A model generated the notes under the pieces. The model saw nothing but the letters and a program-made list of their open reading frames with translations. It was not told the DNA's origin and did not search any database. This document shows, piece after piece, positions 1,954-60,758 of a stretch of DNA of 64,000 nt. Each line of letters starts with the position of its first letter. Position 1 is the stretch's first letter. A program made the translations under genes and the position numbers. Source of the DNA: a virus. Location of the stretch: positions 1 to 64,000 of the IMG/VR virus record IMGVR_UViG_3300043607_000009, one strand, 5' to 3'.

Positions 1954-4900
1954 GTGGGGAGCCTCAACCCGCACTGCCAGAAGTGCCCGCTACACGAGAC
2001 TAGCGACATCGTATGCCTTGCTGGCGAAGGTCGGCGCGGCGCCGAGGTCATGTTCGTTGGCGAAGCGCCCGGTGCGGAAGAAGAACGCGAAGAGCGACCG
2101 TTCGTCGGGCCGTCCGGCCGGCTGCTCCGTGATCAACTCAAACGCGCCGGCATCAAAGACGTGTTCATCACGAACACGGTCCGTTGCGTCGTGGGATCAA
2201 CGGCGGTAAGTTTTCCATCGCCCCCCACGGTAGGGTACAAACGCTATTACCAGGGCCTTCTCTTGACGATCAAGACGGCCTCGGGCAACGAGCTGGCCGT
2301 CACACCGAATCACCCGATACTCACGGCGCGTGGATGGGTTCGCGCTGAGGAGTTGCGCGGTCGAGATGACTACGTTCACTGCTTCGGGCGTAACTCTGGT
2401 ACAACGATTCAGCCACAAGTAGACGACCGCCCACTTCTCGCGGAGCAAGTATTCAGTACGCTTGCGCTTAGAAGCAGCTCGTGCCGGGTTGTTGGTCATC
2501 AAATGGATTTCCACGGCGACGGAACCGATCGCGAAGTCGAGATTGTAAGGGCCGACAGCGCATTGTTCTCGGAACACGACTTTTCTCTTGCGCAGTTCAG
2601 AAGCGAACCAACGATCAGTAGCTCCTTGTTTGCCCCTCGTCTGTTCGGCCGTTATTGCGCTAGTCTGCGCTCGTTTTTTGATCGCCTCAGGGCTCCACAG
2701 CCGTCGATTAGCATAGGCAGCTTGGCGCGCTGGCTCCGAGAGGGCCACACGTTCTTCAGTCGTGAGCTTGCTCCAATATTTTTTCAGAGTGCGCCCTGTA
2801 TCTGCGACCAAAGCAGCATCATGGTAGCTGCGGGCGTTGTAGCCGGCAGCCTTCAATCTAGCGGCAACAGTTCCATCACTAACCCCGAGAGCAACGGCGA
2901 TCTGGCAGAAAGATTCTCCGCGCTTAAAGCGCCCGACCAAATCATCGAGATCCAATCGCAGTTTTGGGCGGGCCATGTCTACAACTTCTCAACGCCGGGG
3001 GGGTGGTACATCTCGAACGGTATTATAACGCACAACTGCCGGCCACCGAGCAACCGACAACCGACTGCGACCGAGATCTCCGCGTGTCGTGGCTACCTCG
3101 CGGATGAGATCAAGCGTGTCAAGCCCAAGTATGTTGTGGCGCTTGGCGCAGTAGCCGCGAAGACGCTCTTCGTTGGCAAGTCCAAGGTCACGCAACACCA
3201 CGGCGCCTTCGTGGAGCCCACTGACAAGCACCCCTACCGCGGCTACGTCGCTTACCATCCTGCCTTCACGCTGCGCGACCCTAGCAAGTTGCCGGCGTTC
3301 ACTCAGGATCTAAAGCGATTGGCCCGTGCGGTCCACGGTGAAGAGCGAGCTCCCGAGGCGCCGTGGTCCCTACTGCGGCGCGGCAACCTGCGGAAGTTTC
3401 TGCGCGAGTTCATCGAAGCCCCGGAGTTCTCGTTCGACCTCGAGACCTCGGGCTACTTCATGCACGGGCCAGGCGGCTACATCAACGCGATGTCGATCGA
3501 CCTCCCGCACCGCACGTGGGTCGTGCCGTGCATGGACTACGATCCAATCAACAAGCGGCACAAGCACACTCCGTGGCGCCGCGGGAACGCCTTCCTCGAG
3601 CTCGTGAAGCTGTTGGTCAAGATCCAACGTGAGACTGCAAAGCGCTGCGTTGGCCACAACGGCAAGTTCGACAACCTCTGGCTCCGCCGTCTGACTGGCT
3701 TCTGGTTCAAGCTCACGTTCGACACGATGCTTGCGAGTCACACGCTGGACGAGAATCGCGAGCACGATCTCAAAACGCTCGCGCGCACCATCCTCGACGC
3801 GCCCGAGTACGACCTCACGCCAAAAGAGAAGAAGGGAATAGTTGTACCGCGCAAGCTCTACCGCTACGGCGCTTACGACGCCTATTACACGCGCAAGCTC
3901 AAGGAGATCTTCTACCGCGAGCTCCAAGACGAACCGGAGCTCCACCGGCTGTATCACAAGCTGATCATCCGCGTCGCGCGCTCGATGGAGAACCTCGAGA
4001 TGGTCGGCAAGACCGTGAATCTCGAGAAGTGGGACGCCACCACGATCGACGTGCAGTCCGAAGTCATCTTGCTCGAGATCGAGCTCAACAAGATGGTAGG
4101 AAAGACCATTAACTGGAATTCGCCGCCGCAGATCGGCCGGCTCTTGTTCGATGAGCTCGGACTCGAGGTCACGCAGTGGACCGACGGAGGGGCTCCGTCC
4201 ACGAGCGAAGAAGCGCTCTTCGATCTGCGCGACGAACACCCCGTCGTGAACAAGCTGCTCGAGTACCGCGAGCGCACCAAGTTCTTGGGCACATACCTGC
4301 ACGGTCTGCGCGAGTATATGGTGGGGCAAACGCTCTACATCCCCTACAAGATCCACGGCACGGTCGGCGGCCGCTACAGTTCGCCAATTCATTCGATTCC
4401 ACGCGACGGCACCATTCGCAACCTCGTCGAAGCACCGGACGGTTGGGATCTCTTCGTGGCCGACATCTCACAGGCGGAGCTCCGCTTCGCTGCACACTTG
4501 TCCGGCGATCTCGAGATGCGTCGCTGCTTCAAGAACAATATCGACATCCACTGGCGCACGCTCATGTACACGCTCGGCCAAGGCTACATCGGCACCGAAG
4601 AGTACGTGGATAACGTGTGGGGCACGGTGAAAGCTCTCGGCAAGCGTGTCAACTCTATCGGCGATGCGTGCGAGGTCTTGCTGCTCGCCGGCCACGATCG
4701 CTGCACCGAGATTTGGAAGGGCTGGAAGGAAGGTCGCTACCGCGCCAAGGCGCTGAACTTTGGGTTTTGCATCGCAGAAGGGCAACGTGTACTGACTCAC
4801 GTTGGTCTAGTACCAATCGAACAAGTGCAGGACTGGCACCTTGTATGGGATGGCGTAGAGTGGGTATCCCATAAAGGAGTTCAATTTAATGGCTACCAAG

Positions 4901-6102
4901 AAGTCATCGAATATCAAGGGCTCAAAGCAACCCCAGAACACGAAGTCTGGACGATGGGGGGGCAGAGGCTTCCCCTTTGGAGAGCGGCATCCGAAGGCCA
5001 TAGACTTGAGAAAACGGGAGCGGGACTTACAGCGTTTCCCTCTAGGGACACTAGTCGTTTTAGTGGGAACGATTCGTCGCGTCGAGAGATCGCGGTTAGT
5101 GATCGACGTTACTTGCACAGCATGCGAGAAACGACAGACGCTTCTCGTAGACAATTTATGGGCGAAGAAGACAACCAACTGTCGCTGTCAAAGAGCCAAG
5201 AAATACTTCGATCCTCGATCCGAAACTCTTGGAATGCGCTACGACACCATGATTCAGCGCTGCGAACGCGATACGCACGTTTCATCGAATCGCTACAAAG
5301 GGCGCGGAATCCAAGTGCTCTTCAAATCGCGAGAGGAGTTTATCCGTTGGGCGTTGAAGAAGTACCCCAACAGCGATTTCAAAGAATTGGTTTTCGATCG
5401 ACGGAACAACGACGGGAATTACTCCAAGGGCAATCTTCGCCTGACAACCTACAGCGTCAACAATCGAAACAGATTAAGGTCTACGATCTAATCGACGCGG
5501 GGCCACGTCACCGTTTCACAGTAGAAGACTGTCTCGTACACAACTGCTACGGGATGTTTGAAGACAAGTTCATCGAGCTTGCCAAGACCGACTACGAGTG
5601 GGAGCCCTCATGGGACGAAGCGCACTCGATGCGCCAAGGCTTCTTCGATCTCTACAGCGGACTCCCCAAGTGGCACGACAAAGAGAAGAAGATCGTGCGC
5701 AATAACGGCTTCGCACGGATCTTGTCGGGGCGTCGGCGCCGGCTGCCGGCGATCTACTCCAAGGAGAAGTGGATACGCGCAGAAGCCGAGCGCCAAGCGG
5801 TCAACATCCGCGTGCAGGGATTCATCGGCGACTACAAGTCCATGGCGCTCGTCGAAGCGGACGATCGGCTGAATCCGCACGAAGCGAAGCTCGTCGGCGA
5901 ACACCACGACGCGCTCCTCGGGATCGTGCGCAAGGACTGCCACGATGTGGTGCTGCCAGTGGTGCGCCAGATCATGAAGGCCCCCGCGCTGCTCCGCGCG
6001 TTCAACATCAAGCTCGACATCCCCATGAATTCGGACATCGAGCTCGGACGATGGGGCGCAGGCGTCAAATATCAAGACCCAGAACAAAGGAGAGCTGCGT
6101 GA
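1954..6102 (+). CDS. Uracil-DNA glycosylase / 3'-5' exonuclease / family A DNA polymerase with two inteins
   Basis: The 1,382-residue precursor splices to about 839 residues. Residues 1-77 and 362-460 form a family 4-like uracil-DNA glycosylase (CQKCPLH cysteines, GEAPGAEEE, PFVGPSGRLL, TNTVR joined to CRPPSNRQPT, HPAF). Residues ~490-620 are a DnaQ-like exonuclease (FDLET, GHNGKFDN). The polymerase domain has motif A (DISQAELR, ~836), motif B (RAKALNFGF, split by intein 2) and motif C (EHHDAL, ~1317). Inteins occupy residues 78-361 and 939-1197. It is presumably the replicative polymerase, and the fused glycosylase suggests that uracil in DNA is recognised during replication. The start is GTG 1954. 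The gene ends in a GTGA overlap with the next one. Confidence 0.92.
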   Translation: MGSLNPHCQKCPLHETSDIVCLAGEGRRGAEVMFVGEAPGAEEEREERPFVGPSGRLLRDQLKRAGIKDVFITNTVRCVVGSTAVSFPSPPTVGYKRYYQGLLLTIKTASGNELAVTPNHPILTARGWVRAEELRGRDDYVHCFGRNSGTTIQPQVDDRPLLAEQVFSTLALRSSSCRVVGHQMDFHGDGTDREVEIVRADSALFSEHDFSLAQFRSEPTISSSLFAPRLFGRYCASLRSFFDRLRAPQPSISIGSLARWLREGHTFFSRELAPIFFQSAPCICDQSSIMVAAGVVAGSLQSSGNSSITNPESNGDLAERFSALKAPDQIIEIQSQFWAGHVYNFSTPGGWYISNGIITHNCRPPSNRQPTATEISACRGYLADEIKRVKPKYVVALGAVAAKTLFVGKSKVTQHHGAFVEPTDKHPYRGYVAYHPAFTLRDPSKLPAFTQDLKRLARAVHGEERAPEAPWSLLRRGNLRKFLREFIEAPEFSFDLETSGYFMHGPGGYINAMSIDLPHRTWVVPCMDYDPINKRHKHTPWRRGNAFLELVKLLVKIQRETAKRCVGHNGKFDNLWLRRLTGFWFKLTFDTMLASHTLDENREHDLKTLARTILDAPEYDLTPKEKKGIVVPRKLYRYGAYDAYYTRKLKEIFYRELQDEPELHRLYHKLIIRVARSMENLEMVGKTVNLEKWDATTIDVQSEVILLEIELNKMVGKTINWNSPPQIGRLLFDELGLEVTQWTDGGAPSTSEEALFDLRDEHPVVNKLLEYRERTKFLGTYLHGLREYMVGQTLYIPYKIHGTVGGRYSSPIHSIPRDGTIRNLVEAPDGWDLFVADISQAELRFAAHLSGDLEMRRCFKNNIDIHWRTLMYTLGQGYIGTEEYVDNVWGTVKALGKRVNSIGDACEVLLLAGHDRCTEIWKGWKEGRYRAKALNFGFCIAEGQRVLTHVGLVPIEQVQDWHLVWDGVEWVSHKGVQFNGYQEVIEYQGLKATPEHEVWTMGGQRLPLWRAASEGHRLEKTGAGLTAFPSRDTSRFSGNDSSRREIAVSDRRYLHSMRETTDASRRQFMGEEDNQLSLSKSQEILRSSIRNSWNALRHHDSALRTRYARFIESLQRARNPSALQIARGVYPLGVEEVPQQRFQRIGFRSTEQRRELLQGQSSPDNLQRQQSKQIKVYDLIDAGPRHRFTVEDCLVHNCYGMFEDKFIELAKTDYEWEPSWDEAHSMRQGFFDLYSGLPKWHDKEKKIVRNNGFARILSGRRRRLPAIYSKEKWIRAEAERQAVNIRVQGFIGDYKSMALVEADDRLNPHEAKLVGEHHDALLGIVRKDCHDVVLPVVRQIMKAPALLRAFNIKLDIPMNSDIELGRWGAGVKYQDPEQRRAA
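2185..3036 (+). other. Intein 1, in the glycosylase domain, with an antisense endonuclease gene
   Basis: The 284-residue insertion interrupts the glycosylase motif exactly between TNTVR and CRPPSNR. Block A is CVVGSTAV, block B GNELAVTPNHPILTARGWV, block F GHVYNFST and block G NGIITHN followed by Cys, as in standard Cys1/Asn/Cys+1 inteins. Between the splicing halves (about 2400-2915) the intein frame encodes no LAGLIDADG or HNH motif; instead, the complementary strand there encodes an endonuclease-like protein (2197-2976). The host frame remains open throughout. The codon boundaries of the two strands coincide. Confidence 0.9.
2197..2976 (-). CDS. EDxHD/Vsr-like homing endonuclease nested antisense in intein 1
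   Basis: This 259-residue protein reads opposite to the polymerase. Residues ~8-45 form a helix-turn-helix (DDLVGRFKRGESFCQIAVAL, GVSDGTVAARLKAAG). Residues ~115-190 resemble the PD-(D/E)XK fold of Vsr-like EDxHD homing endonucleases (FREQCAVGPYNLDFAI, VAVEIH, a basic helix, then WAVVYLWLNR). That family was described as free-standing genes lying between the halves of split-intein genes. Here the gene lies wholly within one intein, and its last ~60 codons are complementary to intein blocks A and B, so the true functional end may be earlier. The ribosome binding site is weak (GAGAAG upstream of the ATG at 2976). The protein is likely real; its activity is untested. Confidence 0.75.
   Translation of the reverse strand: MARPKLRLDLDDLVGRFKRGESFCQIAVALGVSDGTVAARLKAAGYNARSYHDAALVADTGRTLKKYWSKLTTEERVALSEPARQAAYANRRLWSPEAIKKRAQTSAITAEQTRGKQGATDRWFASELRKRKVVFREQCAVGPYNLDFAIGSVAVEIHLMTNNPARAASKRKRTEYLLREKWAVVYLWLNRCTRVTPEAVNVVISTAQLLSANPSTRREYRVIRCDGQLVARGRLDRQEKALVIAFVPYRGGRWKTYRR
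4768..5544 (+). other. Intein 2, in polymerase motif B, with an out-of-frame endonuclease gene
   Basis: The 259-residue intein begins at Cys (CIAEGQRVLT, block A) directly after NFGF of polymerase motif B. Block B is LKATPEHEVWTMGG, block F IKVYDLIDAGPRHRF and block G EDCLVHN followed by Cys (CYGM). Motif B is essential, so the polymerase needs splicing to be active. The middle (~4960-5470) has no endonuclease motif in the intein frame, but the +1 frame of the same strand encodes an HNH-type endonuclease (4889-5491) with its own ribosome binding site. The intein frame has no stop through this stretch. Confidence 0.9.
4889..5491 (+). CDS. HNH-type homing endonuclease nested in the +1 frame of intein 2
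   Basis: The 200-residue protein starts at ATG 4889 behind a strong site, AAGGAG (4874-4879), 9 nt upstream, so it can be translated independently of the polymerase. It has a Cys-rich region (CTACEKR, NCRCQR) followed by the conserved core of a phage HNH-like family (RYDTMIQRCERD, YKGRGIQVLFKSREEFIRW, FDRRNNDGNYSKGNLRL). The same core occurs at 42064-42582 and 60069-60758. It lies entirely inside the intein DNA and shares it in another frame. It presumably mobilises the intein. Confidence 0.82.
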   Translation: MATKKSSNIKGSKQPQNTKSGRWGGRGFPFGERHPKAIDLRKRERDLQRFPLGTLVVLVGTIRRVERSRLVIDVTCTACEKRQTLLVDNLWAKKTTNCRCQRAKKYFDPRSETLGMRYDTMIQRCERDTHVSSNRYKGRGIQVLFKSREEFIRWALKKYPNSDFKELVFDRRNNDGNYSKGNLRLTTYSVNNRNRLRSTI

Positions 6103-41035: not shown

Positions 41036-42067
41036 TTACGGCTCGAACTGCGCGAGCTGATCGAACGGCACGCGGAATCCCGCGGCGTTATTGTGACCGC
41101 CACCACCATACTCTGCCGCGATCATGCCCACGTCGGCCCCGCCCTCGCGTGAGCGCAGAGAGAAGTTGCGGCCGTCCGGAGAGTCGTAGAAGCAGCCGGC
41201 AAACGCATGCGAGTAGCGCAACGGATTGATGTCGGAGTCCACGGTGTTCGGCAGCGGATGCCCCTTCACATTGCGCTCGCAGAGCATGTGCCCCGCGTCC
41301 GACGACAAGGTGTATGGCAAGTTCGCAATCGGCACGACCATGAACCCTAGATCCGCAGCCGTAGGACCATCGAGCCACGGAGCTCGGAATTTCATTGGCC
41401 GAGTGACGACGCGCGCGAGCTCGTCGATGTCCTTGAAGTGCTTGCGCTCGATCGCCTCACCGTTCGCCGCGAACACGTCGCGGTACGGAGCGCTCGCTTC
41501 GAACTCTCGTACGAGATCGCTCCATACCGAGAAGTTGTATGGGAACGAGAACAAGTTTGCTTGAATCTCGCGAGTGTACGGCAGCTTGAAGCGCCAAAGA
41601 TCTCGATCCTCGACGTGATTGAGCAACATCGGCCGCGCGACGCCGGGATTGAAGAAATCCCACGCGAGGCCGGCGCCCGAGCGCTCCAAGTCGTAGATCG
41701 TGTAGATGCCGCCTGTCGAGTCTTCGTCGAGCGTATCCAAGAACGTTTCCCATGACACGTCCTTTGGGTTCGGCGCGGCGAAGATCCGATCCGCTTTGTC
41801 GGGTGCCAAGTCATCACGCGCCGTCTTGTGGTGATCGAGCACAAGCACGATGTTGCGGTTCAACGCGATCGACTTCATCACGTGGCGCTTGTACGCAAAG
41901 TCCACGAAGATGACGATCGAGTCGTAGATCTCGGGCGGCGGCCGCTGATACACGCTGGCATGGAACTCGGGACGACCGCCCTTCCGGTCCTTGAGTGCTT
42001 GGTTCACGACCCATGCGGCGCCGAAGCCATCCGCGCACGGATAATGAAAAATACAATGCACTTTCAT
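41036..42067 (-). CDS. DHH-family phosphoesterase
   Basis: ATG 42067 follows AAGGAAAAA; an open frame upstream lies in the HNH gene. The 343-residue protein has DHH motifs: FHYPCADGFGAAW, IVIFVDFAY, LVLDHHKTA (DHH), HVEDRDLWRF, and a DHHA1-like end AEYGGGGHNNAAGF. DHH/DHHA1 proteins cleave short oligonucleotides or cyclic dinucleotides; a phage copy could recycle nanoRNA or disarm cyclic-nucleotide defence. The choice between them is not visible here. Confidence 0.85.
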   Translation of the reverse strand: MKVHCIFHYPCADGFGAAWVVNQALKDRKGGRPEFHASVYQRPPPEIYDSIVIFVDFAYKRHVMKSIALNRNIVLVLDHHKTARDDLAPDKADRIFAAPNPKDVSWETFLDTLDEDSTGGIYTIYDLERSGAGLAWDFFNPGVARPMLLNHVEDRDLWRFKLPYTREIQANLFSFPYNFSVWSDLVREFEASAPYRDVFAANGEAIERKHFKDIDELARVVTRPMKFRAPWLDGPTAADLGFMVVPIANLPYTLSSDAGHMLCERNVKGHPLPNTVDSDINPLRYSHAFAGCFYDSPDGRNFSLRSREGGADVGMIAAEYGGGGHNNAAGFRVPFDQLAQFEP

Positions 42068-42582
42068 TTGTTTTTCCTTTCTTGTTTGTAACCTTTGCGA
42101 TTCTGAAGAAGATGTTCTACTTGTTGTTCTCGAGTCGCCCATCTACAGTTCGTCGGCGTGTAGTTTCCACGACGATTGGGATACCGATCCAACTCGTGCT
42201 CCTCTGAAGGGCATTCTCCCATATCCTTCAAAAAAGTTTCGTAACTGTTCCAGCGGGGGCAGATACGAACGTTCTTGTAGTGTTTGTAGTCACGTCGTTT
42301 GGTGTTCTTAGACAGACATCGTGCTCGCATAGAGCGCCAAATGCGATAACTCCGAGGAAACTTACCCTTGCGTGCGGCTCCATGAGATCGTGCAGGTCGA
42401 TTTGAAAAAGCGCATCGACGGCATTGGGTCGAAGCGCCATTGCGCAGATGAGTAGCTGACACAACATGCTTCTGCCCACAAGCACATCGACAAAGCCATT
42501 GAGTAAAGGGACTAGTTCTAACTAGCTTGATGACTATCCACTGGCTGAACGATTGCCCTCTAAGATTCTGGAAAGTAGGCAT
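42064..42582 (-). CDS. HNH-like homing endonuclease
   Basis: Residues 1-60 (LRGQSFSQWIVIKLV, LCRCACGQKHVVSATHLRNG, CRRC) are the zinc-binding module and residues ~85-155 the catalytic core (YRIWRSMRARCLSKNTKRRD, YKHYKNVRICPRW, LDRYPNRRGNYTPTNCRWAT) of a phage family also seen inside intein 2 and in the chimera at 60069. The stop overlaps the ATG of the DHH gene. It is AT-rich and inserted between the portal and DHH genes. Confidence 0.8.
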   Translation of the reverse strand: MPTFQNLRGQSFSQWIVIKLVRTSPFTQWLCRCACGQKHVVSATHLRNGASTQCRRCAFSNRPARSHGAARKGKFPRSYRIWRSMRARCLSKNTKRRDYKHYKNVRICPRWNSYETFLKDMGECPSEEHELDRYPNRRGNYTPTNCRWATREQQVEHLLQNRKGYKQERKNK

Positions 42583-42658
42583 AGTACAAGGGTATCACTA
42601 CACTTGTGCTGAGAGATAGGGCGAATCGAAGGGAAAAGGGGTATTCCTACCTTTGCAG

Positions 42659-60068: not shown

Positions 60069-60758
60069 ATGAACGACGACATCAGCACGTTTCAGCTCAT
60101 GGAGCTGTTCCCGGACGAGATCGACGCGCGCGCGTACCTCGAAAAACGCCGATGGGGTGACGCGCCGTGGTGCCCGCGGTGCAGCGACGAACGGATCACG
60201 ACGCGCGGCGGAGATCGTGTCGGCTATTACCGCTGCGGCGCGTGCTCGCTCGAATTCACCGTGCGCAGCGGGACGCTGATGGACCGCAGCCATGTGCCGT
60301 TGGCCGGCTGGCTCGCGGCTCTGATGTATCGCGATCAGTCGATCTCTGACATGGCGCGCGCGCTCGACGTCACTCGCAACTCTGCTGCCAGGCTGCGCGA
60401 TGTGCTGACTGCCGCTCCCACGGCGCTCGACGCGGCCGTTGGCAAACTCGTCGAGACCGTGGCGACGCCGCGCGGGACGCCTGCCCCGCCGAAGCGCTAC
60501 CGTGTAATGCGCGATCCGGTGCTCAGCGTTTGGAGCGGCATGCTTTCGCGCTGTACGAATCCGCGCAGCTCCTCGTATCGCAACTACGGCGGCAGGGGGA
60601 TCACCGTCTGTAAGCGCTGGCGAGTGTTTGCGCATTTCCGCAGCGATATGAGTCCGCGACCGCCGGGTACGACGCTCGATCGCTACCCGAACAACGACGG
60701 TGACTACGAGCCGGGCAACTGCCGCTGGATCAGCGGTGGAAGTACCGCGGCGTGGTGA
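60069..60758 (+). CDS. IS1595-type zinc ribbon/HTH fused to an HNH endonuclease core
   Basis: Residues 1-130 match the amino half of an IS1595 transposase: ISTFQLMELFPDEIDARAYL, CPRC...CGAC zinc ribbon, TVRSGTLMDRSHVPLAGWLA, a helix-turn-helix. The same elements occur in the transposase at 62181. Instead of the DDE domain, residues ~150-225 are a phage HNH-like core (SVWSGMLSRCTNPRSSSYRN, YGGRGITVCKRW, LDRYPNNDGDYEPGNCRWIS). A tail in the next frame (60731-60847; KYRGVVTTPNGPLFVFEE) may be the remnant of a former carboxyl end. It may be a new targeting nuclease or an endonuclease that invaded a domesticated transposase. Confidence 0.7.
   Translation: MNDDISTFQLMELFPDEIDARAYLEKRRWGDAPWCPRCSDERITTRGGDRVGYYRCGACSLEFTVRSGTLMDRSHVPLAGWLAALMYRDQSISDMARALDVTRNSAARLRDVLTAAPTALDAAVGKLVETVATPRGTPAPPKRYRVMRDPVLSVWSGMLSRCTNPRSSSYRNYGGRGITVCKRWRVFAHFRSDMSPRPPGTTLDRYPNNDGDYEPGNCRWISGGSTAAW

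Follow-up and report, generated by a model that had tools for sequence, protein, structure and literature searches.

Two inteins in one phage polymerase gene, each overlapped in another frame by a putative endonuclease gene

The window analysed here, a stretch of 64,000 nt, represents nearly all of a 64,682-base IMG/VR virus record. Close to its beginning lies a host gene (1954..6102, plus strand, 1382 aa, GTG start as listed) with profile matches to UDG family 4 (TIGR00758), an exonuclease (PF01612) and PolA (PF00476), i.e. a fusion of a family-4 UDG with a PolA-type 3′-5′ exonuclease/polymerase that contains two inteins. Intein 1 (2185..3036, plus strand, 284 aa, host residues 78-361) sits in the UDG part at NTVR^CRPP, with Cys1, TPNH as block B, GHVYN as block F, a THN end and Cys+1. 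Intein 2 (4768..5544, plus strand, 259 aa, host residues 939-1197) sits in the polymerase motif NFGF^CYG, with Cys1, TPEH, GPRHRF, an LVHN end and Cys+1. Class 1 residues are present in both (C...TPNH...THN^C and C...TPEH...VHN^C), in motifs that we take to hold the expected catalytic residues. Intein 1 matches the profiles PF14890 and TIGR01445, and the ends of its structural model (pLDDT >90) adopt a Hint fold for which Foldseek returns the solved inteins 1am2 (7.8e-4) and 6frg (9.8e-4); the N and C splice blocks of intein 2 are recognized by block profiles with E values of 7.8e-34 and 4e-15. Judged from profile and motif, and for intein 1 also from the model, both inserts are class 1 inteins.

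Among homologues of the spliced host protein, site 1 is empty in 15 of 15 and site 2 in 14 of 15, the sole occupied site 2 (L429) carrying a relative of intein 2. At this NFGF^CYG site (4768, 5545) the residue following the intein is the required Cys in the window and in L429, and V, I or L in the intein-free homologues. Another UDG-PolA homologue has about 95 additional residues shortly ahead of the polymerase intein-2 site (L434:3509-3835). The host gene itself is flanked on its 5′ side by a NUMOD4 fragment (PF07463; 1550-1696, plus strand), perhaps what is left of a further homing endonuclease, and is adjoined downstream by a separate HNH endonuclease ORF (PF01844; 6331-6858, plus strand).

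A canonical endonuclease domain in the intein frame is absent from both inteins: one nuclease gene (HEN1) runs antisense, the other (HEN2) in +1, and none was found in frame in relatives among the best 80 per scan. HEN1 (2976..2197, minus strand, 259 aa) is codon-aligned antisense to intein 1 over 92% of the intein length, its ATG facing the CAT codon of the block-F His264. Profile searches match it to 3hrl (E 1.3e-8) and 3r3p (E 9.2e-5), and the Pfam family MTES_1575 is found in 47 of 73 HEN1 relatives (best 2.4e-9). The model (mean pLDDT 86.9) combines an N-terminal helix-turn-helix with a Vsr-like nuclease domain; its closest structural comparison is Vsr 1cw0 (Z 11.3, rmsd 2.5, 108 aligned), with further matches to 1vsr (Z 10.4) and 3hrl (Z 9.2, rmsd 2.2, 87 aligned). 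As modelled, HEN1 is a Vsr/DUF559-like endonuclease with a Vsr-type catalytic fold. EDxHD homing endonucleases are named after their E-D-x-H-D residues. Y144, D147 and E156 of HEN1 are invariant in 73 of 73 relatives, D147 and E156 being kept in the window, position 121 is D in the window and E in 69 of the 73, and a GGxWH motif present in most relatives is absent from the window protein. A scan of 2100-3700 for the sigma-70 consensus gave no promoter for HEN1; two terminator-like stems, one on the minus strand (2178-2160), lie in the same region, where 1.5 are expected.

HEN2 (4889..5491, plus strand, 200 aa) lies in the +1 frame over 78% of the length of intein 2. A Shine–Dalgarno sequence, AAAGGAG (4873..4879, plus strand), is found 9 nt ahead of its ATG within intein 2 codons. 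The protein matches phrog_374 (E 8.5e-20) and phrog_3377 (8.4e-15), and a Pfam search found no family for it; by profile it is a member of the phage HNH endonuclease families. The window contains an HNH relative of HEN2 at 42067-42594 on the minus strand (E 1.7e-18), and an ORF at 60069-60758 (plus strand) in which an IS1595-type transposase zinc ribbon (PF12760) is joined to a HEN2-like HNH core. A preliminary description of this DNA had placed both endonucleases outside the intein frame, one antisense and one in +1, had assigned them to different nuclease families and had put the open host frame at about 500 nt. The positions of HEN1 and HEN2 and their Vsr-like and HNH affiliations bear this out, and the host frame is open; only the length needs correction, the overlaps being longer (780 nt for HEN1 and intein 1, 603 nt for HEN2 and intein 2).

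The simplest alternative would be that the host frame stays open over the nuclease genes by chance, through GC-rich DNA, and that the overlap is meaningless. There is some reason to take this seriously, since codon-aligned antisense frames are readily open at high GC (intein-1 relatives with a GC of 0.65-0.75 have a mean probability of 0.30 of an open frame) and a seemingly spurious antisense ORF of 532 aa exists elsewhere in the window. The latter (60863-59265, minus strand) was considered as a third overlap case and rejected, as the genes there are on the plus strand. In this GC-rich phage an open antisense frame on its own is weak evidence. In simulations the nuclease amino acids were fixed and codons drawn from the phage's own long ORFs, loci with fewer than 300 flanking codons being left out. 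For intein 1 of the window 3.8 stops are expected in the intein frame and the probability of an open frame is 0.018; for intein 2, 8.7 stops are expected and none of 2000 simulations remained open. The expected stops amount to 376 in 130 intein-1 relatives, 853 in 75 intein-2 relatives of the +1 type and 14.6 in four of the +2 type, while none is observed; these relatives had been selected for a complete intein frame, and a check by N block gave one interrupted case, L380. At GC below 0.45 all 11 intein-1 relatives are open at a mean probability of 0.036 and all 17 intein-2 relatives at a mean probability of 0.0. HNH relatives provide a control: an alternative forward frame is open in 78 of 78 cases inside intein-2-type inteins but in only 3 of 71 outside them, and two of these three (L236 and L241) are intein-2-type inteins truncated where the contig stops; without them the count is 1 of 69. 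At one HNH outside intein-2-type inteins (L310:2713-3360, plus strand) a second forward frame is open too, as an ORF of 807 nt, possibly another overprinted insertion. Simulation and HNH control together refute the chance reading for both families, and we regard it as extremely improbable; for intein 1 of the window taken alone, chance openness has a likelihood of about 2%. The alternative offered in the preliminary description, frames opened by GC-rich DNA, falls with it: the outcome that would have overturned that description, open host frames being common for such nucleases, did not emerge from the simulations or the control.

The arrangement extends well beyond this phage. Among 50,697 phage records, intein 1 gives 115 matches and HEN1 73, and in the records compared between the 60 matches listed for each the two occupy the same places on opposite strands. 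The intein-1 matches are from Salmonella, Gordonia, Pseudomonas and others, in many cases in genes annotated as head morphogenesis or MuF-like minor capsid. Intein 2 and HEN2 give 29 and 80 matches, and of the additional phage records fetched 15 of 15 have the intein-1 antisense arrangement. Scans of viral contigs, with the best 80 kept per scan, supplied loci L011-L330, in which the N and C splice blocks were located by block-only profiles and the nucleases by their own profiles. On this basis 163 of the 169 N-block matches of the intein-1 family are complete, and all 163 have an antisense codon-aligned nuclease. Six lack an in-frame C block: four are open to the contig end, one (L074) has an open frame in which no C block is recognized and one (L242) looks like a spurious short match. 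The 108 complete inteins of the intein-2 family divide into 89 with a +1 HNH, four with a +2 HNH and 15 with no HNH match, with none in frame, and in three N-block matches without a C block the frame runs open until the contig stops. When identical DNAs and the window copies (L001 and L002) are set aside, the antisense codon-aligned nuclease is present in 130 of 130 intein-1 relatives, and the 92 intein-2 relatives comprise 75 in +1, four in +2, 13 without an HNH match and none in frame, again among the best 80 per scan.

Because the original query contained the middle of the intein, the intein-1 scan was repeated with the splice blocks alone. All 80 loci (the best 80 of 578, many of the contigs being common to the earlier scans) have the antisense nuclease: 74 are complete, five run off the contig and one is interrupted. 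In the last (L380:2501-3479) the antisense nuclease is broken along with the intein frame. Another locus, L047:2002-3735, holds two neighbouring intein-1-type inteins with an antisense nuclease in each. Seen from the nuclease side, no free-standing HEN1 relative occurs among the loci with a HEN1 match (the best 80 of 204 relatives in the viral scan); the N block of the intein is absent only at L001, which is itself part of this window. HEN1 relatives also occur on two GTDB genome contigs (local GC 0.45 and 0.62), in both cases antisense to an intein.

Codon positions indicate which of the overlapping frames is under selection. In the splice regions of intein-2 pairs (60-97% identity), divergence at the three intein codon positions is 0.206/0.117/0.476, highest at the third, whereas in the overlap it is 0.450/0.232/0.202, highest at the first, which is the third position of the HNH frame, in 109 of 109 pairs. 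The shift is weaker for intein 1, where, of 39 pairs, 30 show a first position exceeding the third within the overlap and 8 within the splice regions; the pairs in these counts are non-independent. Between the window and L171 the corresponding values are 0.49/0.215/0.20 in the overlap and 0.075/0.025/0.425 in the N splice block, and the HNH frame is 69% identical while the intein-frame linker is 41% identical.

Intein 1 of the window has no close relative, and selection in the antisense family was measured in relatives, namely 15 distinct Guernseyvirinae copies (L423, of different length, was left out). In their N splice block (codons 1-65) replacements are 31 observed versus 48.5 expected for the intein and 47 versus 47.9 for the nuclease. 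The pattern is reversed further on, with 37 versus 35.7 for the intein and 23 versus 34.4 for the nuclease at codons 66-110, and 136 versus 122.4 and 66 versus 117.4, respectively, at codons 111-236; in the C splice block the intein is again the constrained frame (6 versus 16.5, nuclease 16 versus 16.4). This hand-off of constraint between middle and ends has a P of 4e-11 with the variants taken as independent, and there are no intein-frame stops across the overlap where 6.1 are expected. An earlier pooled-region test, limited to 6 and 9 pairs, was mixed for the six intein-1 pairs and suggested some intein-frame constraint. Taken together, the substitutions show an overlap that evolves as nuclease, with an intein frame that is merely stop-free, and splice blocks that evolve as intein.

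These data also bear on whether the intein-frame middle is itself a functional domain, for instance around its DFHGDG stretch, with the nuclease frame as by-product. The intein frame conserves DFHGDG, and within the overlap AF2 models residues 81-100 with confidence (pLDDT near 90), an outcome not expected of a passive spacer. However, the bulk of the intein-frame middle is modelled poorly, with pLDDT <50 over most of residues 129-233, including 187-233, while HEN1 folds as a Vsr-like nuclease, and substitutions in the overlap track the nuclease frame. In addition, the intein-frame motif DFHGDG...EVEIV faces the nuclease core VGPYNLD...VAVEV codon for codon, so that its conservation needs no intein-frame function. 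The region of residues 81-100 is without intein-frame constraint in the Guernseyvirinae, as seen in codons 66-110. On the selection evidence we reject a real in-frame middle domain as very unlikely, although this does not account for the confident modelling of residues 81-100.

Start signals of the nuclease genes are written into intein codons. The block-F motif occurs in 168 of 174 distinct inteins of the intein-1 family, and the HEN1 start faces the block-F His. Its codon is CAT (ATG antisense) in 132 of the 168, CAC (GTG) in 25 and not a His in 11; for comparison, the block-B His of the same inteins is CAC in 143 and CAT in 29, and His codons of the exteins are CAC in 944 and CAT in 507 cases. 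The VYNLQT codons that follow the block-F His read as GGAGG on the antisense strand, 8 nt before the HEN1 start. Here Leu is CTC in 128 of 163 inteins; exteins use this codon for 31% of their Leu residues (P 3e-35), and at block B it is found in 53 of 159 cases (P 2e-16). GGAGG, GGAG or GAGG lies ahead of the start in 88 of 116 inteins with a GH block F, a count for which starts were taken without Shine–Dalgarno preference; a Shine–Dalgarno match of at least 4 accompanies 163 of 1701 extein His codons, in a slightly different window. HEN1 of the present window has the CAT and none of the three sequences, and its Shine–Dalgarno is weak. In many relatives of intein 2 the Shine–Dalgarno of the HNH is likewise built from intein codons, as AAGGAGGT within KEV. 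Some of the start-signal fractions, the intein-2 part among them, are biased upward because the choice of start favours Shine–Dalgarno candidates.

As to origin, distances between splice domains and between nucleases agree in both families (Mantel r 0.54, largest permuted 0.15, and 0.66, largest permuted 0.13), which implies that intein and nuclease mostly moved together. The intein-1 exteins (n=176) fall into one head-protein cluster in 147 cases, with four clustering with the UDG of the window and 25 elsewhere; the intein-2 exteins (n=89) are PolA in 78 cases, with two further clusters of 8 and 3. The names of the unannotated extein clusters are our reading. In the HNH tree the HEN2 of the window falls within a starred clade of 13 intein-borne and six non-intein HNHs, the latter interrupted by 5-8 and 14-29 stops in the remaining two forward frames, and the starred branches force at least four switches between the intein-borne and non-intein states. 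The +2 HNHs form one clade (SH-aLRT 86). The mixed clade and the forced switches make exchange between free-standing and overprinted states likely for the HNH nucleases. With 6 of its 84 inner branches starred, the splice-domain tree of intein 2 has too little resolution to date HNH gain and loss. From their distribution, both inserts are best described as old composites, widespread in phages, and not as two fresh settlements in this gene. The preliminary description had proposed a recurrent route by which free-standing endonucleases settle in mini-inteins. At the level of families a recurrent route is supported, with two unrelated intein/nuclease pairs on opposite strands, a third frame in the +2 clade and the mixed HNH clade, a free-standing origin being no more than conjectural for HEN1; two independent fresh settlements in this gene are not supported, given the Mantel correlations and the presence of the composites elsewhere.

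We favour, at a probability of about 0.8, the view that this phage gene holds two mobile composites, each a splicing intein with a complete endonuclease gene overprinted in another frame. Sequence demonstrates the architecture and its conservation, the frame selection in relatives, the avoidance of stops, the start signals and the empty sites of homologues; splicing, nuclease activity, homing and the HEN1 transcript are predicted. During synthesis of the host protein the ribosome would translate the nuclease gene out of frame, and the resulting peptide would serve as a spacer joining the two halves of the splicing domain, to be removed along with the intein. The nuclease would be made by separate initiation, internally for HEN2 and from an antisense transcript for HEN1, and would cut intein-free alleles, leading to homing. 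A fuller reading, which we find probable, is that these are two old, widespread phage intein families without any in-frame endonuclease, the nuclease being an independent overprinted gene. Block F of the antisense family (GHVYNLQT) would double as ribosome-binding site and start codon of the opposite strand, DFHGDG would be merely the shadow of the nuclease active site, and the intein frame over the nuclease would be selected for little except the absence of stops.

It may be that the nuclease ORFs of the window are decayed passengers, i.e. that the old composites have kept splicing while these two copies have lost the ability to home. HEN1 of the window indeed lacks several residues conserved in its family as well as a good Shine–Dalgarno, both frames are interrupted in L380, and the intein-2 relatives without an HNH match (13 of 92) indicate that loss occurs. 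Yet both ORFs of the window are full length, HEN1 retains the invariant D147 and E156, and the HNH frame is better conserved than the linker between the window and L171, with changes mainly at the third HNH codon position. Decay is the unlikely though not negligible alternative to two composites that remain mobile.

Canonical homing inteins such as PI-PfuI (1dq3) have a Hint domain with the nuclease between its halves, as in inteins 1 and 2. In these inteins the nuclease is a domain within the same polypeptide, whereas here it is in another frame (HEN2) or on the other strand (HEN1). Split inteins with a free-standing endonuclease between the halves have host gene and intein divided into two ORFs; the host here is a single uninterrupted ORF. 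I-Bth0305I (3r3p, Vsr-like/EDxHD) shares the Vsr-type catalytic fold with HEN1 (Z 10.1, rmsd 2.9, 91 aligned), but is listed in the PDB as a mobile intron protein, while HEN1 lies antisense in an intein and has an N-terminal helix-turn-helix. Parts of the arrangement are visible in GenBank records without explanation. In APSE-1 (AF157835) the CDS P46 lies in +1 inside the PolA gene P45, and P46 matches HEN2 and P45 intein 2; it differs in that P46 is given no function in the record and the intein occupies another PolA site. Phage PK1 has an intein with antisense 'hypothetical proteins', and the Snoke intein is annotated without a nuclease feature.

The closest published parallel is the part of PMC11855218 (2025) on ShiLan and Pacc40, where out-of-frame HNH insertions in phage methylases leave the host frame open and, by its account, lack a splicing domain. 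They share with the present case the open host frame, a homing-type HNH in another forward frame and a disordered host-frame model, but HEN2 is nested in an intein with N and C splice blocks and HEN1 is antisense; conservation, frame-wise selection and start signals are also measured here. The same source cites a 2025 preprint (title ending 'Non-Canonical Architecture') for frequent overlapping frames in actinobacteriophages. Our literature search turned up no intein bearing an endonuclease gene on its opposite strand, and this preprint on actinophage inteins may already describe part of the present arrangement. A metagenomic study (PMC7468147) describes a 0.8-kb intein/homing endonuclease of a phage minor head protein as variable.

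If our reading is true, overprinting would be a standard route to a homing intein, alongside in-frame fusion. A search restricted to endonucleases in the intein frame would see only large inteins with an odd unknown middle, and once the arrangement is recognized, a conserved motif can be understood as the shadow of a gene on the opposite strand. A large set of natural overlaps, antisense and +1, would be gained, with a clear hand-off of selection between frames, and the assembly route of homing inteins becomes testable. The arrangement also suggests that nuclease output can be uncoupled from the output of the host protein.
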